From contig NZ_CP020100.1 in NCBI RefSeq assembly GCF_002056295.1, positions 2,255,501-2,319,500 of the forward strand: a stretch of 64,000 nt of DNA. Reading direction: 5' to 3'. Positions 11,814-59,435 of this stretch are shown in pieces. The translations under genes were made by a program, and so were the position numbers. The stretch is from Halopseudomonas phragmitis (GTDB lineage Bacteria > Pseudomonadota > Gammaproteobacteria > Pseudomonadales > Pseudomonadaceae). The notes beneath the pieces are model-generated. The model ran no database searches, was not told the origin of the DNA, and worked only from the letters and a program-made list of their open reading frames with translations. The stretch's first letter is position 1. Each line of letters starts with the position of its first letter.

Positions 11814-11855
11814 GGAAGTTGATCCTTGTTTCCTGAAATTGGGGATGACGTGGCA

Positions 11856-26403: not shown

Positions 26404-26455
26404 GGTCTGTTGCCGACCGGGCTATTAGGCTTTCGTGCAATTAATCAGTGTTCCC
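26404..26455 (+). mobile_element. Remnant (copy A) of the CACTGATTAA MITE-like family
   Basis: The right end of the family: a CCGACCGGGC segment, a spacer ending CGTGCAATTAATC, and the terminal repeat TTAATCAGTGTTCCC (26441-26455). The left terminal repeat and central palindrome are missing. It begins immediately at the moaA stop. It resembles copy E (59365-59435) more than the full-length copies. Confidence 0.7.
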
Positions 26456-26574: not shown

Positions 26575-27555
26575 ATGCACGTCGCATCCGGCCGCTGGCT
26601 GTACGGTTTTCTATTGGCAATGACCACCGCCACGCTGTGGGGGGTATTGCCGATTCTGCTTAAAGAAGTGCTCAAGGACATGGACCCCTTTACCGTGACC
26701 TGGTACCGGATGATCAGTGCTGGTCTGGTTCTGTTCATCTGGCTGGCAGCGCGGCGCCGGCTGCCTTCGATTCGCGCGTTGTCGTCCACCAACAAAGTCC
26801 TGTTGGCTGTGGCAGTGTTGGGGTTGGCCTGTAATTACGTACTGTATCTGATGGCGCTTAACCGGCTGACCCCGGGTACCATGCAACTGATCATTCAGGT
26901 TGCGCCGATCATGCTGATGATTGGCAGCATGCTGGTGTTTCGTGAACGCTTTGGGCTTGGTCAGGTGTTGGGGTTGGCGGTCCTGATGCTGGGGTTCGGA
27001 CTGTTTTTCAATCAGCGCCTGGGTGAGCTGTTTACCCAACTGAGCGGTTACACCCTGGGTATTCTGATTGCTCTGGCAGCGGCGTTTTCCTGGACGCTGT
27101 ACGGTTTGGCGCAAAAGCAGTTGCTGACGGTCTGGTCATCGGTCACGGTGATGATGGTGATTTATCTGGGCAGTTCGGTACTGTTGTTGCCGCTGGCCGA
27201 GCCGGCCCAGATTCTCAGACTGTCCCATCTGCAGTTGTGGCTGCTGGCTGGTTGTTGCCTGAATACCCTGGTGGCCTATGGTGCCTTTGCCGAGGCACTG
27301 GTTCACTGGGAGGCTTCGCGGGTCAGTGCTACGGTGGCGACCACACCGCTGCTGACCTTCAGCATGGTGGCGCTGGGTGCGCTGTTGTGGCCGAGCGTGG
27401 TCGAACCTGAACTGCTTAACAGCCTGGCCTATATCGGGGCGCTGCTGGTGGTGGGCGGTTCGGCTCTGATTGCCCTGGCTCCAAGTCTGATCCAGAACCT
27501 GCGCAATCGCCGCCTGCGGCGGCTAAGTGTCACGCCGCCACCGGCCGGTTCTTGA
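26575..27555 (+). CDS. EamA/RarD-type DMT-superfamily permease
   Basis: 326 residues with about ten hydrophobic helices arranged as two EamA repeats (first about residues 8-145, second about 157-300), the layout of drug/metabolite transporters. Examples of the helices are LLAMTTATLWGVLPILL and LGILIALAAAFSWTLYGLA. Substrates of this superfamily are diverse, so none is assigned. The basic C-terminal tail is RNRRLRRL. The ATG has only a weak ribosome site. It follows a 170-base gap holding a mobile-element remnant, and its stop codon lies at the edge of the next element (copy B). Confidence 0.88.
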   Translation: MHVASGRWLYGFLLAMTTATLWGVLPILLKEVLKDMDPFTVTWYRMISAGLVLFIWLAARRRLPSIRALSSTNKVLLAVAVLGLACNYVLYLMALNRLTPGTMQLIIQVAPIMLMIGSMLVFRERFGLGQVLGLAVLMLGFGLFFNQRLGELFTQLSGYTLGILIALAAAFSWTLYGLAQKQLLTVWSSVTVMMVIYLGSSVLLLPLAEPAQILRLSHLQLWLLAGCCLNTLVAYGAFAEALVHWEASRVSATVATTPLLTFSMVALGALLWPSVVEPELLNSLAYIGALLVVGGSALIALAPSLIQNLRNRRLRRLSVTPPPAGS

Positions 27556-27703
27556 TTGGCAGCACAAAAGCGCAGTAGCCCGGTTTGTTGTTGACCTGTT
27601 CTGGACCGTTAGATGCCAGGGATGGCATCTACGAGCCCCCAGGGATGGGTTTACGGCGTGTCCAGAACAGGTCAACAACAAACCGGGCTGGCAGTGATCT
27701 CGA

Positions 27704-27717
<14 letters not shown>
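27549..27717 (-). mobile_element. MITE-like element, copy B, with perfect 29-bp internal inverted repeat
   Basis: A non-coding element of about 170 bases in inverted orientation relative to copies C and D. A 29-base arm at 27577-27605 is repeated exactly in reverse complement at 27661-27689, around a loop that contains a second hairpin. The terminal repeat TTAATCAGCGCTCC (27704-27717) is clear on the fumC side and is followed by CTAA; the opposite terminus is degenerate (CTTGATT). It lies between the convergent DMT permease gene and fumC and overlaps the fumC stop. Confidence 0.82.
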
Positions 27718-29095
<1,378 letters not shown>

Positions 29096-29181
29096 GGTCG
29101 GACCTCCCTTGACTGGCGATGTGGGGGTGGGACTGTCAGTATAGGGGCTGGTGGTCACTGATATCGAGTTGGGAGAGGGGT

Positions 29182-29685: not shown

Positions 29686-29711
29686 AGTCAATAGCCCATT
29701 ATTTGCCGAAT

Positions 29712-29883
29712 AAAACGCTGATTAATTGAGTTTTAGTGTTAGCCCAATTGGCGCTGACCTGTTCTGGACACGCCGTGAACCCATCCCTGGGGGCTTGACG
29801 ATGCCCGTCCAGGGCATCGACAGTCCAGAACAGGTCAGCGCCAACTGGGCTGCTTGGCTTTTGTGTTATTAATCAGTGTTCCC
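29712..29883 (+). mobile_element. MITE-like element, copy C
   Basis: 172 bases, non-coding. The right terminal repeat is TTAATCAGTGTTCCC (29869-29883); the left is an imperfect AAAACGCTGATTAA. The internal arms at 29741-29769 and 29823-29851 are inverted repeats of 29 bases with one mismatch. A GATGCCC/GGGCATC hairpin sits in the loop. It is followed by TTAA, but the left flank is not a matching duplication. It lies between the DUF2059 gene and bolA, 17 bases before the bolA ATG. Confidence 0.85.
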
Positions 29884-30215: not shown

Positions 30216-30258
30216 ACGTTCAGTCATCTCCTGCTGTTTGATACACTGCGCGCCCTAA

Positions 30259-30431
30259 GGAAACACTGATTAAATCAGTTTCGGTGCTGGCCCGGTTGGT
30301 GCTGACCTGTTCTGGACACGCCGTGAACCCATCCATGGGGGCTTGGCGATGCCCGTCCGGGGCATCGACAGTCCAGAACAGGTCAGCGCCAACCGGGCTG
30401 TTGAGCTTGTGTGCAATTAATCAGTGTTTCC
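30259..30431 (+). mobile_element. MITE-like element, copy D (best-preserved, CTAA target duplication)
   Basis: 173 bases. Perfect 15-bp terminal inverted repeats GGAAACACTGATTAA (30259-30273) and its complement (30417-30431) are flanked on both sides by CTAA (30255-30258 and 30432-30435). The internal arms (about 30289-30317 and 30371-30399) form a 29-base inverted repeat with two mismatches. The loop carries a GATGCCC/GGGGCATC hairpin. There is no ORF of useful size. The YTAR-type 4-bp duplication and GGAA termini recall IS5-group elements. It lies between bolA and trhO. Confidence 0.88.
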
Positions 30432-30481
30432 CTAATTGGTGCGCCCTTTACGCGGGCGATAACTGAATGTACGAGGTAGGC

Positions 30482-59364: not shown

Positions 59365-59435
59365 GGAAACACTGATTAAATCTGTTCCGGCGCCAACCGG
59401 GCTGCCGGGCTTGCGTGCAATTAATCAGTGTTGCC
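59365..59435 (-). mobile_element. MITE-like element, copy E (71-bp internal-deletion form, CAAA duplication)
   Basis: 71 bases with terminal repeats GGAAACACTGATTAA (59365-59379) and TTAATCAGTGTTGCC (59421-59435), flanked by CAAA on both sides (59361-59364 and 59436-59439). The flanking identity demonstrates a 4-bp target duplication. The central 29-bp inverted repeat and its loop are deleted compared with copies B to D, leaving the CGCCAACCGGGC end. It lies between the response regulator stop (8 bases away) and the Spy-like gene. The orientation mark is arbitrary. Confidence 0.88.

Follow-up and report, generated by a model that had tools for sequence, protein, structure and literature searches.

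A probable IS5-type MITE family of Halopseudomonas phragmitis and the widespread two-hairpin core in its interior

The 173-bp repeat analyzed here lies in a 64,000-nucleotide stretch of the Halopseudomonas phragmitis genome (the window), and it raises the questions of what kind of element it is and what its long palindromic interior might do. The preliminary description of the window had read it as copy D of a non-coding, MITE-like family with five copies (A to E), moved by an IS5-group transposase. The perfect 15-bp terminal inverted repeats and the CTAA flanks of D were both verified. The 29-bp internal stem was confirmed by folding, but its arms enclose two hairpins and not the single one described. 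Copies A to E were located correctly (Table 1). The left end of B is unrecognisable (8 mismatches), and that of C is decayed. Copy A was rightly called a remnant: G018, the nearest relative among the genomes searched (about 91–98% identity at the D locus), holds an intact 173-bp element there, beside another inverted repeat. Allowing up to three mismatches, the 15-mer of D (GGRAACACTGATTAA) has 10 matches in the window against 0.63 in shuffles, and those at 11819 and 58050 fall outside copies A to E. Copy B sits between a converging EamA-family gene and fumarase-like gene, and C and D have short ORFs on either side, with a DUF2059 gene and a UPF0176/rhodanese gene next to these. The fumarase-like gene (27704–29158, minus strand) takes its final four codons (GSAD) and its stop from the right end of B (27704–27718).

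Table 1. Positions in the window of copy D, its parts and its sister copies.
Feature	Position	Strand	Remarks
Copy D, full 173-bp element	30259..30431	+	perfect 15-bp ends; CTAA each side; empty site in G018
Left CTAA duplication of D	30255..30258	.	single CTAA in G018
Right CTAA duplication of D	30432..30435	.	single CTAA in G018
D internal stem, left arm	30289..30317	+	from fold; its final 3 bases are the first 3 of the core
D internal stem, right arm	30371..30399	+	from fold; its first 3 bases are the final 3 of the core
D 59-bp core, GAC...GTC	30315..30373	- (GGA strand)	covariance-model match 30299-30389, minus; alignment of cores
D hairpin 1	about 30328-30339	GGA strand minus	within 59-bp core
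D hairpin 2	about 30347-30367	GGA strand minus	within 59-bp core
Copy C	29711..29883	+	left end decayed; core 29767-29825, GGA strand minus
Copy B	27549..27718	-	right end alone recognisable; core 27604-27662, GGA strand plus; also in G018
Remnant A	26404..26455	.	single end (26441-26455) fused to the end of another inverted repeat
Copy E, short form of 71 bp lacking the core	59365..59435	+	CAAA each side

Searching the whole 4.035-Mb genome showed that the family recurs well beyond the window. With up to two mismatches, the 15-mer of D gave 84 matches as opposed to 0 for a reversed control, which excludes a chance origin of the repeated ends, and D itself as query returned at least 81 matching pieces (from the best 40 of 85 candidates). 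Pairing ends in the stretches around these D and 15-mer matches yielded at least 34 two-ended elements of 71–301 bp, a collection that misses copies with both ends decayed because it derives from such stretches. Eight of these are 71–94 bp long, eighteen 161–174, six 250–251 and two 301. The expectation of an abundant family held genome-wide, but the window is denser than the genome, as 34 elements in 4.035 Mb amount to about 0.5 per 64 kb. Twelve of the 34 lie between exact 4-bp duplications, where chance identity is 0.55% per pair; ten are YTAR and the remaining two TTAC and CAAA. YTAR makes up 37 of the 68 flanking tetramers, against a background of 0.2% in 54 host loci and in the window, and the YTAR-type duplications proposed from a handful of copies hold in this larger sample. 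Eight of the 34 two-ended copies are short forms that lack the interior described below; copy E is of this kind, and two further sites have a short form in the host but still the hairpin in G018.

Comparison with G018 also provided an empty site. Where the host reads CGCGCCCTAA, then D, then CTAATTGGTGCG, G018 reads CGCACCCTAATTGGTGCG with one CTAA; this is the one orthologous empty site examined for a full copy, and it is clean, so the element does not always occupy the same position. G018 has a truncated copy of its own after TTAA at a place without any copy in the host. The lack of a transposase in the element was upheld and extends to the host genome, which gave 0 matches to the PF05598 (DUF772) transposase, while 19 of 37 genomes of the genus have matches. 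A full insertion sequence with like ends, suggested earlier as something to look for, was found in congeners as 1.2-kb IS5-family elements. The 1229-bp element of G033 carries GGAAACGCTGATCAA at one end and GGAAACGCTGCACAA at the other, with flanks that resemble TTAG one base out of step; that of G031 has CTAG on both sides, and the transposases of both exceed the cut-off of the NCBIfam IS5 model NF033581. G019 contains pieces of a G033-like element at 92–98% identity, and there the right end of the IS and both ends of two MITEs (L385 and L386) are the identical 15-mer GGAAACGCTGATCAA, the left end of the IS being different (GGAAACGCTGCACAA). No core was found at the ends of the IS copies searched.

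Abundant copies, YTAR duplications, an empty site and congeneric insertion sequences with like ends together support the original IS5-type reading, and we consider the D family very probably a non-autonomous IS5-type MITE. An IS5-family transposase would act on the 15-bp ends, move the MITE and leave the 4-bp YTAR duplications; since the host itself has no such transposase match, we can only infer that a congeneric one does this in trans. Like MITEs derived from IS5-family elements (NF033581; PF01609 + PF05598), the host family has 15-bp GGAA ends, YTAR duplications and no internal transposase, and it differs from them in holding a two-hairpin core with a distribution of its own. REP and REPIN sequences with their RAYT genes are likewise short intergenic palindromes in many copies, but the sole Y1 transposase match of the host is surrounded by other repeats (by eye), and a RAYT was rejected on this ground as the mover of the core. 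That gene (L096, G000:C1:1877469-1877717) is RAYT-like and lies amid its own GGGAGC-type palindromes.

The interior of the MITE is a separate and widespread two-hairpin core, which the first reading missed. In D the two hairpins lie within 59 bp (GAC...GTC) enclosed by the arms, and among the matches listed exactly these 59 bases recur in the genus at 92–100% identity while the flanking query is unmatched. Elsewhere in the order, other families have the core on different arms and without MITE ends (by eye). Scanning genome contigs for a 31-base core pattern gave at least 120 stretches, with records that include Marinobacter, Stenotrophomonas, Xanthomonas, Lysobacter, Arenimonas, Alcanivorax, Haliea, Cellvibrio and Rheinheimera. 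A covariance model (E ≤ 1e-6) found the core in at least 27 of 184 genomes of the class, host included, and at least 37 uninterrupted cores in the host, all lower bounds because 150 of 1464 candidates were scored in the host and at most 23 per genome in the class survey. Both MITE ends lie within reach of 23 of the 37 host cores, one end in 3 cases and none in 11, as opposed to both ends at 21 of 3000 random places. The core therefore exists independently of the MITE in many Gammaproteobacteria, and the family is an element of known kind with an unusual passenger. Searches of the open-access literature with the letters of the core and ends returned, among the matches listed, only papers whose excerpts appear unrelated, and broader MITE searches gave general MITE papers or nothing on the core. 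Three contigs with cores typical of other groups (L131, L134 and L180) are labelled as a Klebsiella pneumoniae MAG, and this label may be wrong.

It is very improbable that the interior is functionless in the host, with a captured hairpin as the accidental filler of an ordinary MITE. The short forms without a core fit such a reading, particularly the one at 2593082 with an exact TTAG duplication, but the core is conserved in genomes beyond this genus and at least 37 uninterrupted copies can still fold in the host.

To describe the fold, 147 cores were collected, of which 134 passed and 131 entered the alignment (22 from this genome and its MITE kin and 109 others). In these, 97.1% of cells pair; double changes number 1062, as opposed to 307 after shuffling, and sliding the partner by 1–3 columns lowers pairing to 27–45%. 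The pairing figure is partly built in, because pairing was a criterion in choosing the arms and the search pattern had set hairpin 1 in most rows, which leaves hairpin 2 and the pair 21-51 (C-G in 106 cores, U-A in 23) as the fair parts. The layout of two GGA-tipped hairpins on an outer stem is present, hairpin 1 again being partly fixed by the pattern, and GGA stands at the tip of hairpin 2 in 131/131 cores. Among 60 further rows it falls in the expected zone of hairpin 2 in 47 and of hairpin 1 in 53; many of the misses are cut or interrupted copies and some are real departures (e.g., L138). At tip 2, several D-type copies depart from ANGGA and read CGGAC or UGGAC, which counts against the account favoured below.

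The arms were chosen by Watson-Crick pairs only and therefore favour neither strand, while an A-C on one strand is a G-U on the other, so an excess of one over the other can tell the two strands apart. Read on the GGA strand, the 109 non-host rows have 49 G-U against 14 A-C (p about 1e-5, cells treated as independent), and thinning similar arms to 57 rows leaves 29 against 11 (p 0.006). The 22 host rows, with 6 and 2, are too few to tell, and the 60 further rows, with 38 and 14, are not counted as support because the model that retrieved them tolerates G-U. By the excess in the non-host rows the GGA strand looks like the constrained RNA, and from the G-U excess and the conserved tips we think that the core probably acts as RNA, which would fold with two adjacent GGA hairpins. 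Against this, the non-GGA strand of D has the more stable predicted fold, at −90.1 kcal/mol vs. −80.3 for the GGA strand.

Arms usually differ between loci yet pair well, and cores often come as outward-facing pairs: in 27 of 28 pairs of neighbouring cores starting within 600 bp, the GGA strands point outward, a count made on 114 of 125 model matches. With the 11 weakest matches included, the tally would by eye rise by four outward pairs, a same-strand pair (L138) and an inward one (L196, truncated where the locus ends). At 16 loci with two aligned cores, mean sharing is 88% in the core and 44% in the arms. The arms are not unrelated everywhere, as eight copies in G129 have related arms that vary mostly by matched changes (by eye). 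Copying of the arms from the target at insertion was considered and is unsupported at the gltD locus, where neither the element nor, by eye, either arm is present in G009 and G026. In G039 (L097–L101), words resembling GTGCCA...TGGCAC are frequent in the spacer between outward cores and may form an outer structure common to the pair.

Turnover in place was followed at 25 host loci matched to G018, of which 23 aligned; 7 of 32 G018 loci have no partner among the host loci compared. A long related element is found in both genomes at 15 sites, B and C counted in, and its interior is inverted at three of them: at 84802 (97% identity, a clean inversion), at 1006301 (90%) and in C (81%, another core type). 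Loop inserts are present in the host and absent from G018 at two sites, and hairpins are absent from the host at two others. Between host and G018 the left arm of B has four differences, three matched on the other arm and one not, and L038 has two unmatched changes, so matched arm change is common but no rule. One 2601-bp stretch shared by host and G018 (L056 vs. L351) is 99.96% identical where other compared loci are mostly 92–98%, perhaps through recent transfer. The two 301-bp copies (L041 and L056) carry an additional two-hairpin insert inside the loop of hairpin 2, and similar inserts fill the same loop in the cores of other bacteria (L132, L134 and L147; by eye).

These changes speak for a core that works as DNA. 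Template switching between arms and conversion between copies would maintain its perfect palindrome, and some recombinase might process it as a cruciform or single-stranded hairpin. The inverted interiors, the hairpins gained in loops and lost elsewhere, the three matched changes in B and the contrast of 88% and 44% within paired cores are all consistent with this reading, as is the absence of gene-strand bias described below. We nevertheless consider it unlikely, as a DNA-level process does not predict more G-U than A-C, nor the retention of GGA on one strand.

In tandem gene contexts no strand bias to the neighbouring genes was seen, with 17 cores sense and 17 antisense, and cruder gene calls gave 11 and 11; the gene calls for both tests were made within this analysis, and 30 of 90 groups were unclear in the main one. 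A cis role with fixed orientation was rejected on these counts, which also weigh against the RNA reading. They also bear on a role between genes as a transcript-end device, either a terminator or a REP-like stabiliser of 3′ ends. The folds are very stable, convergent contexts outnumber divergent ones (14 to 6 in the 54 single cores whose gene calls were usable), and an outward pair would offer one GGA-strand core to either reading direction. A terminator, however, needs neither conserved GGA tips nor unpaired core letters, and the lack of strand preference in tandem contexts also speaks against this role, which makes it improbable, more so than action as DNA.

Returning to action as an RNA of the GGA strand, no known Rfam family identifies the core: 14 sources, the window included, gave 0 matches at gathering score. 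The weak matches are mostly to microRNA models, plus Yersinia Ysr224, and to TwoAYGGAY (RF01731), whose scores at two core sites, 32.0 and 31.9 bits, fall short of its gathering score of 43. Excerpts of the literature list TwoAYGGAY as probably RNA and not cis-regulatory (PMC2864571) and predict that it binds CsrA (PMC4333381). It shares with the core a like order of two GGA-tipped hairpins on a long outer stem (RF01731; PMC2864571), and it differs in that the core letters are other ones and that the host core is high-copy, paired and inside a MITE. The CsrA/RsmA-binding consensus is given as RUACARGGAUGU in an excerpt of PMC6849547, and some core copies read GUACAGGGAUGU, which fits it. As in CsrA/RsmA-binding hairpins, GGA stands at the hairpin tips; the core differs in its very long arms and in being a predicted binder only. 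The host has a csrA gene (one PF02599 match), and CsrA/RsmA is a candidate partner of the core whose chances we put a little below even. Coxiella MITEs, compared by description only from an excerpt of PMC5896051, are similar in being a MITE family discussed for small-RNA evolution.

The account we favour, with moderate confidence, is that of an IS5-type MITE carrying a captured, structured module, namely a long stem and two hairpins with GGA tips on one strand, which would fold as an RNA of that strand and whose likeliest partner would be the regulator CsrA/RsmA. Every new copy of the MITE would then add a potential site or decoy for CsrA/RsmA, and if the core does bind CsrA/RsmA, transposition would distribute sites for a global regulator. 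More tentatively, and less likely than not, the 59-bp core could be a class of its own: a conserved cassette across Gammaproteobacteria, with locus-specific, well-paired arms and mostly in outward pairs, that takes hairpins into its loops and was captured and multiplied by an IS5 MITE in this genus as putative transposon-borne CsrA/RsmA sites. A transposon family is here joined to a conserved, RNA-like fold, and a seemingly empty MITE may spread ready-made RNA structures around a genome. Because the sites shared by host and G018 include hairpins that have been inverted, enlarged by inserts or lost in place, the origin and upkeep of perfect palindromes become testable, and the wide family of cores is material for settling what TwoAYGGAY-like RNAs do.

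A second inverted repeat, GGGTCTGTTGCCG...CGGCAACAGACCC (26404–26416 in the window; near 1284–1375 in the G018 locus L273), adjoins the intact element of G018 at the site of copy A. The host counterpart of this site holds the fused remnant only, and the inverted repeat looks like a second MITE-like family.
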